DNA of 64,000 bases from positions 2,634,501 to 2,698,500 of the forward strand of contig NZ_CP050695.1 in assembly GCF_012044895.1 (NCBI RefSeq), written 5' to 3'. The position numbers and the translations under genes are program-made. Below are positions 46,994-53,805 of the stretch, piece by piece; the first letter of the stretch is position 1, and the number at the start of each line of letters is the position of its first letter. The notes under the pieces were generated by a model. The model had not been told where the DNA came from. It saw nothing but the letters and a program-made list of their open reading frames with translations, and did not search any database. The stretch comes from Aquisalimonas sp. 2447 (GTDB lineage: Bacteria > Pseudomonadota > Gammaproteobacteria > Nitrococcales > Aquisalimonadaceae).

Positions 46994-48466
46994 TCACCCA
47001 CCTTCGGGGATGCGGGCGACCATGCGCAGGGAGGTGGTCAGCTCCTCCATCTGCAGCCAGGGGCGCAGCCAGGCGACAGCGTTGTATGCGCCAGGCTTGC
47101 CGGGTACCGGAGTGACCTCCACCTTGGCTTCGCGCAGCGGGTACTTGGCCCGCATCTCCTGGCCGCCCCCTTCGCTGGCATTCACGTAGTTGTTGATCCA
47201 GCGATTGAGCCAGCTCTCCATGTCCTCGGCTTCCATGAAACTGCCGACCTTGTCCCGGCCCATGACCTTGAGGTAATGCGCAATACGGGAGGTGGCCATG
47301 ATGTAAGGCAACCGGGCGGAGATGGCCGCGTTGGCCGTGGCCTCCGGGCGGTCGTACTTGGCCGGCTTCTGCGCCGTCTGCCCGCCGAAGAACACGGCGT
47401 AGTCGGTGTTCTTGTAGTGGGACAGCGGCATGAAACCGAGACTGCTCAGCTCCGCTTCACGCCGATCGGTGACGGCAATCTCCGTGGGACACTGCATGTC
47501 CACGTCGCCGTCGTCGGAGGTGGTCAGGTGAACCGGCAGGCCGTCCACCCGGCCGCCGCCTTCGGCGCCGCGGATGGCGGTGCACCAGCCGTGCTGGGCG
47601 AAGGCGTCGGTGAGGCGCGTGCCAAGCACGTAGGCGGCATTCATCCAGGTGTAGTCGCCGTTGCCAGGCTGTGTATCCGCCGGCATTTCCTCGTAGGCGA
47701 ACTCCTCCACCGGCGACGTTTCCTCACCGTAGGGCAGGCGCGAGAGCACCCGCGGCATGGTCAGGCAGACGAAGCGGGAATCCTGGGACTCACGGAACGA
47801 ACGCCACTTGATGTACTCCGCCGAGTCGAAGATCTTGGCGAGATCCCGCGGCTTGGACAGTTCCGTCCACTCGTCGAAACCGAACATGCCGGCATCGGCA
47901 GCACTCAGGAACGGGCAGAAGGCCGCCGCCGCCACGTTGGACATGTTGCTGAGGAATTCCAGATCGTCCGGGTGATTGCCGAAGGTGTAGTCACCGATCA
48001 GCGCTCCGTACGGTTCACCGCCCGGGGTCCCGAACTCGCTCTCGTAGATCTTCTTGAACAGCTCGCTCTGGTCGAACTCCACGGCCTTGGACAGATCCTT
48101 GGCGGCTTCCTTCTTGGTGACGTTCAGCGCCCGCAGTTTCAGCGACGTGCTGGTTTCGGTGTTCATCACCAGGTAGTGCAGCCCGCGCCAGGTGCCTTCC
48201 AGCTGCTGGAACTTCTGGTGATGCATGATCTCCCGCAACTGGGCGCTGATGGTCTCATCGATGGCGGCGATGGCCTTGCGGAACGTCACCGTGAGGTTCT
48301 TGTCCCAGGCGACGGTCCCTTCCATGGCCTGTTCCGACAGGGTGCGCAGCAGCTCGCGCGCCTCGTCCTCGCCGGTCTGTTTGGTGGCCTGAATGGCCTG
48401 ATCCAGCAGGCTCGCCGCCTCGGCTTCCGCGCCGTGTTGTTGCTGTGCTTCCGTTGCTTCACTCAT
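46994..48466 (-). CDS. tssC: TssC, type VI contractile sheath large subunit
   Basis: A 490-residue sheath subunit. Typical: [66 protein letters not shown] and [21 protein letters not shown]. It overlaps the tssB gene by eight bases. It assembles with TssB into the contractile sheath. The start [10 protein letters not shown] was chosen over an upstream ATG inside tssB. Confidence 0.95.
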
Positions 48467-48986
48467 CGCTCTTCTCCTCACCCTCGGACTGCTCGCCGGC
48501 ACCGACGGCGTCGGCCAGTTCATCCAGATCCGCCTTGTTGGTCAGAACCCGCTCGATGATCTCTTCCAGCTCTTCGGAACGATCCGCCTTGGTGGAGAGG
48601 TCACGCAGCCGGTTGCGCGTCTCCATGAGCTTGCGCAGGGGCTCCACCTGCTGGACCACCGCTCCGGGCTCGAAGTCGTCCATGGACTCGAACTTGAGAT
48701 CCACGGCGAACTCGCTGCCGTCGTCCTGGATCCGGTTGTCGACCTTGAGCTGGAGGCCGGGCGTCATGCTGGCGAGAACCTGGTTGAAGTTGTCCCGGTC
48801 GATCTGCACGAAACGCCGGTCCTTCAAGGGCTTCAGGGGCTCCGTGGGATCCCCGGAAAAATCCCCCATGACGCCGACGATGAACGGCAGTTCCTTCTCC
48901 ACTACAGCGCCTTCGGTCTCCACCTCGTAGCTCAGGTGCACCCGCGGCTTGCGCACGCGGTTGAGTTTGTCGTGAATGCTTGGCAT
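48459..48986 (-). CDS. tssB: TssB, type VI contractile sheath small subunit
   Basis: A 175-residue protein starting [20 protein letters not shown], with [32 protein letters not shown] and an acidic C-terminus. The C-terminal helix ([19 protein letters not shown]) is the ClpV-recognition region in the family. It is coupled to tssC. Confidence 0.95.
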
Positions 48987-50580: not shown

Positions 50581-51276
50581 TCAGCGGGTGCGGCCCTGAA
50601 ACAGCCTGACCCGACGGTACTTGAACAGCAGTATGAGCACGGCGCCTGCCAGGAAACCGCCGATATGGGCCAGGAAGGCGACGCCGGGCTCATCCGGATC
50701 CACGCCGGCGCTGCTGATGAGTTGCAGACCGAACCAGACAATCAGGACCAGACCGGCGGGCAGCCGCGCCGGGTAGAGAATAAAGCCCAGGGGGATCACC
50801 ACGGTGATGCGGGAGAACGGATGCAGCATCAGGTAGGCGCCGAGCACGCCGGAAATGGCCCCGCTGGCACCGATCATGGGGATCTCGGAGCCGGACGCCG
50901 GGGCGCCGTGGACCAGGGCGGCGACCACCCCGCACAGCAGATAGAAGACCACAAACCGCAGGTGTCCCATGGCGTCTTCGACGTTGTTGGCAAAGACCCA
51001 CAGATAGAGCATGTTGCTGATCAGGTGCATCCAGCCGCCGTGCAGGAACATGGATGTGAACAGGGTGGCCCAGGCGGGCACCATGGCCATGTCCGGGTGC
51101 AGCCGGGCCTCGCCGAAAAACACGGCCGGGATGAAGCCCAGGCCGTGAATGACCGCGGCATGGGCTCGCTGATCCAGGCCGAGCTGCCAGAAGAAAGCAC
51201 CGATACACGCCGCCAGAAGCGTCCAGGTGACGATCGGGAGAATGCGGGTCGGGTTGTCGTCGGCAACGGGGATCAC
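50581..51276 (-). CDS. Rhomboid-family intramembrane serine protease
   Basis: A 231-residue membrane protein with six to seven helices. The catalytic Ser138 is in GASGAISGV and His204 in AHIGGFLAG, with the [17 protein letters not shown] helix (residues 79-95) that forms the oxyanion region. A GTG start gives [14 protein letters not shown], the typical rhomboid opening, and was preferred to longer frames with no ribosome binding site. Substrates are unknown. Confidence 0.87.
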
Positions 51277-51397
51277 GGCGGGGGCTGGCTCGCTGCTGGC
51301 TGACTCGGGAGTCTGGCATACTGCCACAAGGGAATACGATGGCGGGACCTCTGGCTGCCGCGTCGGTGGCACCACCGTATCGACAGGACAGCAGACC

Positions 51398-51544
51398 ATG
51401 CCGCACGTGAAACCGCGTCTTCCGGAGAAGGTCTGCCCGGTGTGTGAGCGCCCGTTCCGATGGCGGCGCAAGTGGCGCAACAACTGGGATAGTGTTGTCT
51501 ACTGCTCGGAACGGTGTCGTCGGCGAGCCGCACGACGGTGCTAA
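51398..51544 (+). CDS. DUF2256 zinc-ribbon-like small protein
   Basis: A 48-residue basic protein: [16 protein letters not shown], then [15 protein letters not shown]. Four Cys in two C-x2-C/C-x3-C pairs could bind zinc. DUF2256 genes commonly accompany photolyase/cryptochrome-related genes, and the photolyase gene here ends ten bases further on the opposite strand. Too short to appear in routine gene calls. Confidence 0.8.
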
Positions 51545-51553
51545 CAGTACAAG

Positions 51554-53092
51554 TCAGCCACCCAGAACCGTCCGCCGGTGCGCATCGGCGGTATCCTGAA
51601 TCGCGGTACGTTCTTCGTCGCCAAGGCGCTGAAGGTTTCGCACCTGCAATGCCGTTCGTGGATTGCGCCGCAGGCGGTCTTCGTGGCGGATCAGGAAATC
51701 CCAGTACAGGGCGGTGAAGGGGCAGGCCGTGTCGCCGCTGCGCTGTTCCGGTTTGTACGCGCAGTGCTGGCAGTAGTTGCTCATGCGCTGGACATACTTG
51801 CCGGAGGCACAGTAGGGCTTGGAGGCAAGCAGGCCATCGTCTGCGAACTGGGACATACCCAGGGTGTTCGGCGCCTCCACCCACTCCACGGCGTCGACAT
51901 AGACGGCCAGATACCATTCGTGCACGCGGCGTGGCTCAACGCCGAGCATCAGGGTGTACAGGCCGGTGATCATCAGCCGCTGGATATGATGGGCATAGCC
52001 GTGGTCCAGGGTCTGCCCGACACTCTGGCGCAGGCAGGTCATGTCGGTCTCGCCGGTCCAGAAAAACCCGGGCAGGGGGTGGGTCGCCTCCAGCGCGTTA
52101 TTGTCCAGGTACCCAGGCATGTGCAGCCAGTAGATGCCCCGCACGAACTCGCGCCAGCCCAGCACCTGGCGGATGAATCCTTCCACGGACTGCAGCGGTG
52201 CCCGCCCTTCGCGGTATGCCTGCTCGGCGGCATCCACGGCGACCCGTGGCGAGAGCAATTTGAGATTCATTGCCGCGGCGAGCCGTGAATGATACAGCCA
52301 GGGCTCGTCCATCCACAGGGCATCCTGATACGGGCCGAACGCGGGCAGCCGGTGGTCCACGAAGTCCGCCAGCGCCTCCCGGGCCTGCTCCTGAGTCACC
52401 GGCCAGTCAAAGTGGTCCAGACGCCCGGGATGATCCGCATAGCGCGCCTCCACCAGCGCAAGCACCTCTCGGGTGATGGCGTCGTGTTGAAAACTCTTGG
52501 GCGCAGGCAGCATGCCCGGTCCTTCACGGCCGAAGCTGCGCCGGTTCTGGTGGTCCAGATTCCAGCTGCCGCCAACAGGCTGGTCACCGTCCATGAGCAC
52601 ATGCCGGTCAAACCGCATCGCCCGATAGTAGTCTTCCAGTCGCAGCCGCTTGCGCTCGCGGGCCCACAACCGGAATCCCTCCGGCGAGTCGAAGAACTGC
52701 CGATCCCGCACGACCACCAGGCGCTTGCCGGCGCGCCGTACTGCACCCCGCAACTGTTGCAGCACTCGATAGTCGCCGGGCTGGGTCACCAGGACGTGCG
52801 CCGGGTTCAGGCGGGCGAGATCGGCGGACAGCGCCTCGCCCAGGGTCTGTGCACGGTCCGCATCGAGCCGGTGGTAGTGGACGGTGGTCCCTCCTTCCCC
52901 CAGCCCTTCGGCGAAGTGCCGCATGGCGGACAGGAAAAGCGCGATCCGCGCCTTGTGTGACCAGACATGGGTGGCTTCCTCGGGTACTTCTGCCATCCAC
53001 ACGGCGTCGTGATCACGATCAAAATTGTCGAACACGGCGGCGTCAGCGTTAAGCTGATCCCCCAGGCAGATCACGAGCTGGCGTAGGCCCAC
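51554..53092 (-). CDS. Photolyase-related protein, iron-sulfur CryPro/PhrB type
   Basis: A 512-residue protein of the prokaryotic (6-4) photolyase/CryPro family. The N-terminal alpha/beta domain starts VGLRQLVICLGDQLN; the helical FAD domain has GWREFVRGIYWLHMPGY and MQFADDG-like WVEAPNTLGMSQFADDG. Four Cys expected to bind the 4Fe-4S cluster are in DMTCLRQ, NYCQHCAY and DTACPF. The GTG start is chosen because GGAGGT lies nine bases upstream; an ATG 16 codons earlier lacks one. The enzyme repairs UV lesions in DNA using light. Confidence 0.9.
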   Translation of the reverse strand: MGLRQLVICLGDQLNADAAVFDNFDRDHDAVWMAEVPEEATHVWSHKARIALFLSAMRHFAEGLGEGGTTVHYHRLDADRAQTLGEALSADLARLNPAHVLVTQPGDYRVLQQLRGAVRRAGKRLVVVRDRQFFDSPEGFRLWARERKRLRLEDYYRAMRFDRHVLMDGDQPVGGSWNLDHQNRRSFGREGPGMLPAPKSFQHDAITREVLALVEARYADHPGRLDHFDWPVTQEQAREALADFVDHRLPAFGPYQDALWMDEPWLYHSRLAAAMNLKLLSPRVAVDAAEQAYREGRAPLQSVEGFIRQVLGWREFVRGIYWLHMPGYLDNNALEATHPLPGFFWTGETDMTCLRQSVGQTLDHGYAHHIQRLMITGLYTLMLGVEPRRVHEWYLAVYVDAVEWVEAPNTLGMSQFADDGLLASKPYCASGKYVQRMSNYCQHCAYKPEQRSGDTACPFTALYWDFLIRHEDRLRRNPRTALQVRNLQRLGDEERTAIQDTADAHRRTVLGG

Positions 53093-53145
53093 GGGCGGGC
53101 ACCTCCGGTAACGGGCGTGGCATGATGCCAGCGGCGGCAATCAAT

Positions 53146-53175
53146 TTATACAACTAGTGTACAGGAGATGTACGA
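53146..53175. promoter_or_regulatory. Three 11-bp direct repeats matching CarH/LitR operator
   Basis: The units TTATACAA, GTGTACAG and ATGTACGA start exactly 11 bases apart (53146, 53157, 53168). They fit the nTnTACAn pattern bound head-to-tail by B12-dependent CarH/LitR photoreceptors, with one deviation in the third unit. The block lies between the photolyase gene and the exonuclease gene, overlapping a likely -10 (TATAAA on the minus strand) of the photolyase and the ribosome site of the other gene. No carH/litR gene is in the window. Confidence 0.65.
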
Positions 53176-53805
53176 ATGTCTCGATTCCGCAAACCGCCGA
53201 ACGACGTTTTCGTGTCCACGGATATCGAGGCGGACGGACCCGCGCCAGGCCTCAATTCCATGCTGTCTCTGGGCTCAGCGGCGTACGCCCTGGACGGGGA
53301 GCTGCTGGACACGTTCAGCATCAACCTCGAGACGCTGCCCGAGGCGAGCGCGCATCCGAAAACGGTGGAGTGGTGGAAACAGTTCCCGGAGGCCTGGGAA
53401 CTGGCGCGGCGTGATGCACGACCACCCACCGAAGCGATGGCCGCCTATCTGGAGTGGCTCAAGGGGCTGGATGGCCGACCGGTGTTCGTGGCCTGGCCGG
53501 TGGGGTTCGACTTCCCGTTCGTGAATTACTACCTGATGCGCTTCACCGGCGAGGCACCCTTCGGTTTCACGGCGCTGGACATCAAGACGTACGCCATGGC
53601 GCTCACGTCCAGGAGTTCCTACCATCGCACCACCAAGGACCGGCTTCCGGACCGCTGGTTCGAACCGGGGCTGAAGCACAACCATGTGGCCCTGGACGAC
53701 GCCCTGGAACAGGGTTCGCTGTTCATGGCCATGTTCCGGGAAGCCATGGACACCGCCAGCGACGGGGTCAACCTGGCGGATTATACCGAGTTCCCGGACT
53801 GGTAG
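53176..53805 (+). CDS. DEDD-family 3'-5' exonuclease (RNase T/DnaQ fold)
   Basis: A 209-residue nuclease domain. DEDD residues: Asp16 and Glu18 in STDIEADGP, Asp in FVAWPVGFDFPF, and His/Asp in HNHVALDDALEQG. The metal-binding layout matches exoribonuclease or proofreading exonuclease domains. AGGAG precedes the ATG within the third CarH-like repeat, so translation and light regulation may intersect. Its divergence from the photolyase suggests a role in repair or stress. Confidence 0.85.
   Translation: MSRFRKPPNDVFVSTDIEADGPAPGLNSMLSLGSAAYALDGELLDTFSINLETLPEASAHPKTVEWWKQFPEAWELARRDARPPTEAMAAYLEWLKGLDGRPVFVAWPVGFDFPFVNYYLMRFTGEAPFGFTALDIKTYAMALTSRSSYHRTTKDRLPDRWFEPGLKHNHVALDDALEQGSLFMAMFREAMDTASDGVNLADYTEFPDW

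Follow-up and report, generated by a model that had tools for sequence, protein, structure and literature searches.

The LitR/CarH type of regulator has been described in several bacteria. In class I, which includes Thermus, Bacillus and the Myxococcales, the operators are tandem 11-bp repeats nnnnTnnACAn, according to the available part of PMC9304148. The class II regulators of Pseudomonas have operators of the form TRTACA-N12-TGTAYA, for example TGTACA-N12-TGTACA. The light-inducible genes given for them in the available part of PMC9758184 are phrB, ufaM, folE and cryB; the phrB/ufaM operon includes an FAD oxidoreductase. In P. mendocina, according to the same source, PmSB-LOV attaches to the HTH domain of PmlR2 once it is activated by light. 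In surface plasmon and run-off transcription experiments this abolishes the repression by PmlR2, while a gel shift showed instead a complex on DNA; the authors favour removal of the repressor (PMC9758184, in part). In V. cholerae the VCA0056-phr system shows a blue-light response, and a photo-oxidative signal has been proposed for the MerR-like VCA0056 of the phr operon (PMC5241685, in the part available).

The locus that we have studied is found in Aquisalimonas sp. 2447 (G000), whose genome of 3.97 Mb is a single contig. The window, which is the whole stretch of DNA that was analysed, has 64,000 nucleotides (C1:2634501-2698500). It contains two divergent genes, for a photolyase and an exonuclease, which are separated by a gap of 83 bp. 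The features of this region are:

51554-53092, minus strand: DPRP-family photolyase of the FeS-type bacterial cryptochrome/(6-4) kind, its start best placed at GTG 53092 behind GGAGG (sequence read directly)
53145-53150, minus strand: TATAAA, -10-like letters, a candidate for the photolyase gene, which overlap unit 1
53147-53152, plus strand: putative operator unit 1, TATACA (sequence read directly)
53158-53163, plus strand: putative operator unit 2, TGTACA (sequence read directly)
53163-53167, plus strand: ribosome-binding sequence AGGAG of the exonuclease, which shares one base with the end of unit 2 and stops short of unit 3
53169-53174, plus strand: putative operator unit 3, imperfect, TGTACG, between the exonuclease ribosome-binding sequence and its ATG
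53176-53805, plus strand: DEDD-family 3'-5' exonuclease, its start best placed at ATG 53176 behind AGGAG (sequence read directly)

The step from unit 1 to unit 2 and from unit 2 to unit 3 is 11 bases in each case. Units 1 and 2 are exact TRTACA and carry the full TnnACA core; unit 3 is TnnACG. In the terms of PMC9304148, as far as its available part defines them, the site has two direct repeats and one pseudorepeat. The initial annotation had described three TNTACA units: the spacing and two exact units are as it said, the third one is TGTACG. For this reason an exact TNTACA triplet at an 11-base step has no match in the window. When one mismatch is allowed there is a single match, at 53147-53174, and none in 100 shuffles. 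The pair TRTACA-N5-TRTACA with at most one mismatch gives four rows in the window, all of them in the photolyase/exonuclease gap, for an expected value of 0.03. Throughout the genome this pair gives 31 rows (20 distinct places, near-palindromes being counted on both strands) versus 3 for the backwards control. The TATAAA-like -10 which had been assigned to the photolyase gene is present as letters, on the minus strand at 53150-53145, but no sigma-70-like promoter was matched by pattern search in 52950-53300.

The photolyase belongs to PF04244 (Pfam, E 1.2e-68). Its closest PDB entries are the (6-4) photolyase PhrB (5kcm and 4dja, about 1e-148) and cryptochrome B (3zxs, 3e-140); the matches to PhrB/CryB are full-length (5kcm, 4dja, 3zxs and 7ykn). 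It has cysteines at 353, 441, 444 and 457, which we take to be the iron-sulphur ligands, plus two others. For the exonuclease the best evidence is PDB entry 7t2s, a 3'-5' exonuclease (E 1.6e-19); the Pfam families Rv2179c-like and RNase_T are slightly under their cut-offs. An open frame with DUF2256 (PF10013), at 51227-51544 on the plus strand, is convergent with the photolyase gene and stops 10 bases from its end. In G006 (L122), G106 (L029) and G078 (L030) a short frame similar to it can be seen by eye immediately upstream of the photolyase. Elsewhere in the window Pfam identifies the type VI secretion sheath genes VipA and VipB (46994-48986, minus strand).

A regulator of the LitR/CarH type, which the initial annotation presupposed, is indeed present. 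There is one in the genome, with 289 aa (L015:3409-4278, which is G000:C1:3295408-3296274); the MerR_1 profile has four matches, only one of them in a LitR-sized frame. A classical photolyase gene overlaps and directly follows litR, in the same operon. The RxWERRY helix is found as LRAWERRYGL (PF13411, E 1.7e-18), and the best full-length match in the PDB is the Thermus CarH/LitR. The structure predicted for its orthologue in the same genus, L169, has a mean pLDDT of 88.5 and a pTM of 0.69. Its C-terminal domain superposes on the cobalamin domains of CarH with Z about 20, at 2.5-2.9 Å over 186-194 residues with 20-22% identity; a photocobilin ties with the CarH domains (Z 20.0).

The residues which bind B12 have been lost. 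The motif Wx9EH is absent from the regulator: the aligned residues are S and GA, and a second, different alignment shows no EH either. The cobalamin ligand motif D/ExHxxG is also absent, with CxD..A in its place. This is the case for all the regulators of the family, both motifs being missing in 14/14. In an alignment of 108 homologues, from which L088 (one internal stop), L089 (cut) and matches without a locus were left out, 39 have the motifs in full, another 3 carry Ser in place of the acidic residue and 66 are without them. Up to E 1 Pfam finds only MerR-type and HTH matches in the regulator, with no B12 domain and no remnant of the B12-binding_2 four-helix domain. The sensing by a B12 photoreceptor which had been proposed for the site is not supported for this protein. 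We also considered, and rejected, the possibility that a CarH able to bind B12 is encoded at another place in the genome: the three PF02310 matches belong to frames of 523, 1186 and 1282 aa, which are not MerR-sized, and only the one in the 1282-aa frame passes the cut-off.

Phylogenetic trees separate the LitR rows of Pseudomonas and Halomonas from those of the order to which the window belongs. One change of motif status suffices in the unrooted tree, built without six near-duplicate rows (L169, L170, L171, L173, L176 and L179). Two are needed in the tree rooted on Thermus CarH, which has a very long outgroup branch and was built additionally without three long-branch rows (L191, L205 and L206). 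It is possible that B12 binding was lost here independently of Pseudomonas.

Among the 115 genomes compared, 39 have the photolyase and 15 the exonuclease. They form a divergent pair in G000, G002, G003 and G004, and also in G006, which belongs to another genus. The first four are all the genomes of the genus in which the photolyase is found, and the units of the window are kept in every one of them (4/4). Unit 1 is always (A/T)ATACA and unit 2 is identical; unit 3 appears in the relatives as TGTACT, TGTATC or TGTATA. G000 and G002 are closely related, but in G003 and G004 most of the gap outside the units differs from theirs. Part of the conservation of the units has another cause, since units 2 and 3 are close to the AGGAG and the start codon of the exonuclease. 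The repeats are therefore conserved at orthologous photolyases, as the earlier proposal had anticipated, although within the limits of the genus.

The upstream regions of the photolyase were compared in 30 of the 39 genomes which have it, leaving out 9 without a locus. No units are seen by eye in 26 of these 30 regions, all of them outside the genus; six of the 26 were formally scored, with 0 matches. G006 has the gene pair without the units. G001 has the exonuclease, with no photolyase match and no units, and there are none either in any of the 11 exonuclease upstream regions outside the four genomes. To judge by these regions, the operator of the window is a genus-level feature tied to the gene pair and not a general one for such photolyases. 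In three genomes, from two other genera, a sequence close to AAACCTTACAC is found upstream of photolyase/exonuclease genes (L023/L122 in G006, L059 in G009 and L025 in G011); the units are absent there. Perhaps another regulator or a sigma factor took over in such cases.

Similar pairs are found at other genes of the family. We scored two TNTACA units with at least 9/10 letters, on either strand and with spacings 7-23, in the upstream regions of four gene groups. Pairs with the 11-bp spacing are present at litR in 14/14 family genomes, at an amine-oxidoreductase gene in 14/14 and at folE in 13/13 (second copies at L117 and L118 excluded; folE has no match in G003), as well as in the exonuclease/photolyase gap of 4/4 genomes of the genus with photolyase. 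The simulated means are 0.03-0.10 (200 rounds, first-order sequences). The second-best spacing is 22 (folE 8/13, window pair 3/4), which is double the 11-bp step, as expected of tandem repeats; none of the other spacings in the range 7-23 is above 4/13, 3/14 or 2/4. The folE gene, identified by TIGR00063 and PF01227, has in G000 a perfect triplet, TTTACA-TATACA-TGTACA (15/15), the only such one in the stretches scanned. The window site has a score of 14/15, as has L008 6325, one of the other TRTACA pairs of the genome. Behind the oxidoreductase gene come DUF1365 and CMAS genes, a gene order read in G000 only, as the first gene alone was sought in the relatives.

The targets found in this way suggest a list which is nearly equal to that of the Pseudomonas class II LitR. 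From their shared sites, the litR-phr operon, folE, the oxidoreductase/DUF1365/CMAS operon and the photolyase of the window would form one light regulon. The interpretation of the window site as an operator of the LitR kind is well supported, because the targets which share the 11-bp pairs match the published light regulon of Pseudomonas; we consider it very probable. That it controls the photolyase gene appears only slightly less so.

Other pairs were also observed. A chalcone-isomerase-like gene (L017 2108-2686, minus strand) has by eye an 11-bp pair upstream in 4/5 genomes of the genus and in 0/3 outside it, 8 of its 13 matches having been covered. It is a possible further member of the light regulon. 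More TRTACA pairs are found near a cydB-type gene, ubiG, an MdoG-type gene and a DCC1-like gene; some of these are palindromic and could be sites of a different regulator. A perfect palindrome, TGTACAATTATTGTACA, lies at G000:C1:892973-892989 (L008 5974), downstream of the cytochrome bd subunit II gene, and an imperfect three-unit repeat is found about 350 bases beyond it.

A candidate light sensor is present in the genome as a short LOV protein of 141 aa, LOV-B (L149:3143-3568, G000:C1:1692657). In the PDB its 12 best chains have values of 1e-62 to 3e-53, the next one being at 3e-31. The best group is annotated as 'sensory box protein' and the like; it includes 3sw1, presumably PpSB1-LOV, so that we take the whole group to be short LOVs of the Pseudomonas type. 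Short LOVs of this PpSB type are present in 14/14 family genomes, within a longer open frame in G001 and G004. The litR and LOV genes are at different places in G000. In G106 they adjoin: the LOV gene is next to a LitR-type gene, itself beside photolyase and chalcone-isomerase-like genes, and this LitR has no B12 motifs by eye and no Pfam B12 domain. A short LOV gene lies at 4 kb or less from litR in 5/80 named loci, and all five regulators are B12-less. LOV-B is found in 17/23 relatives with a B12-less LitR and in 0/5 with the B12 motif, one of these five rows (G061) having Ser at the acidic position; the Fisher p of 0.005 overstates the evidence, because the 23 and 5 genomes are not independent of one another. 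A second short LOV, LOV-A (L119:2757-3209 in G000), also occurs in part of the relatives, among them genomes where the search gave no LitR; LOV-A and photolyase occur together in 12 g9 genomes of this kind. G000 also has a small BLUF protein (L093).

Our main reading, to which we give a probability of about 0.62, is that the window site is the operator of a LitR/CarH-type repressor, which would repress the photolyase in the dark and would have a short LOV protein as its sensor. In the dark the repressor, placed on the tandem 11-bp units, would block the transcription of the FeS-type photolyase. In blue light the short LOV protein would bind the repressor and lift it off the DNA, by homology with PmSB-LOV and PmlR2. 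Since the repressor has lost its B12 ligands, a separate short LOV is the most likely sensor; by analogy we consider it probable that light is sensed in this way, rather than through B12 or another signal. What the sequences show is the units with their spacing and conservation, the loss of the motifs and the LOV gene; from these we infer the binding of LitR to DNA, the direction of the light effect and the partnership with LOV. Several points speak against this reading: the N12 spacing of the class II operators in Pseudomonas, the separate places of litR and the LOV gene, the conflicting results for PmlR2, the lack of a sigma-70-like promoter match at the site, the LOV-A and BLUF proteins of G000, and the restriction of the photolyase units to the genus.

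The same repressor and operator could respond to a different signal, either photo-oxidative (ROS, linked to ChrR) or coming from another photoreceptor such as BLUF. Control of the BLUF type is known as BluR/BluF in E. coli. In its layout the litR-phr operon is like VCA0056-VCA0057, and V. cholerae no longer responds to blue light when both ChrR and MerR are mutated (PMC5241685, in its available part). LOV-B is missing in 6/23 relatives with a B12-less LitR, so that not all such regulators can depend on it, and the BLUF gene of G000 also speaks for another photoreceptor. However BLUF was found in 1/8 family genomes searched, versus LOV-B in 14/14, and we have set it aside as a partner of LitR; a signal of this different kind looks improbable to us. 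A CarH photoreceptor which itself binds AdoB12 at the window site is much more difficult to accept. CarH operators do have the same 11-bp step (PMC9304148, in the part available), and the orthologue L169 keeps the CarH fold in the prediction, but the regulator lacks both ligand motifs and any Pfam B12 domain, and the genome has no second MerR frame of LitR size: we find this very unlikely. It is even harder to believe that the units are due to chance, or that the DNA is kept only for its translation signals. Units 2 and 3 do have AGGAG and the start codon beside them; yet translation does not need unit 1 or the 11-bp step, which are also conserved, pairs of the same kind are found at three further genes and 0/100 shuffles gave the triplet. 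The LOV-dependent repressor is thus the reading that we retain.

The position of the exonuclease in this scheme is more delicate. It may share the switch of the photolyase, as the initial annotation had suggested, and its membership in the light regulon is a tentative proposal, for which we would not give even odds. It is even conceivable that the exonuclease is the primary target of the operator and the photolyase is affected just because it lies nearby, or that the two genes are equal partners in a light-induced repair pair. Unit 3 lies between the ribosome-binding sequence and the ATG of the exonuclease, so that the repressor, once bound, would lie over the 5' end of this gene, and the two genes are also divergent in another genus (G006). 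On the other hand G001 keeps the exonuclease without photolyase and without units, which counts only weakly against its membership because a single deletion could explain it. Furthermore the Pseudomonas regulon holds the cryB photolyase, but no such exonuclease is named in the available part of its description, where several genes are unannotated (PMC9758184). An operator which serves the exonuclease first, or both genes equally, seems unlikely to us, and the photolyase remains the preferred target.

A 28-base pattern has thus led to a testable light regulon in a family of halophiles. No light regulon of this family (Aquisalimonas and its relatives) is described among the matches listed for the open-licence literature. 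The wider picture would be a change of sensor in which the DNA code was kept: the LitR of the family would have given up B12 and come under a PpSB-type LOV while retaining operators of the CarH type with an 11-bp step, possibly independently of Pseudomonas, and the DEDD exonuclease would have been drawn into the switch of a light-induced (6-4) photolyase. Taken as a whole, this picture is doubtful. Relatives are found on both sides of the loss of B12 sensing. If the control by LOV is true, the family is a natural series for photoreceptor exchange with unchanged operators, and a comparison of its 11-bp step with the N12 spacing found in Pseudomonas would become possible.

Among the described systems, VCA0056-phr of V. 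cholerae is similar by its operon layout, with a MerR-type regulator together with a photolyase; it differs from the system of the window in that no operator is described for it in the available part of PMC5241685. The resemblance to class I LitR/CarH lies in the repeat step and core, in the two repeats with a pseudorepeat, in the RxWERRY recognition helix and in the predicted CarH fold (PMC9304148, in part). The species studied here differs from class I by the loss of both B12-ligand motifs in its regulator and by its targets, those found here being repair and stress-type genes. With class II of Pseudomonas there are also differences: the spacer is N5 (an 11-bp step) instead of N12, the LOV gene is not adjacent to litR, and the regulator has no B12-binding_2 domain detectable by Pfam and is placed on another branch of the tree than the Pseudomonas and Halomonas rows. 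But it is with class II LitR/short LOV (PplR and PpSB-LOV in P. putida, PmlR2 and PmSB-LOV in P. mendocina) that it has in common a B12-less LitR, a short LOV of the PpSB type, operator units TRTACA and probable targets such as phrB, folE, a CMAS-type (ufaM) operon with an oxidoreductase and a cryB-type photolyase, as far as the available part of PMC9758184 describes them.
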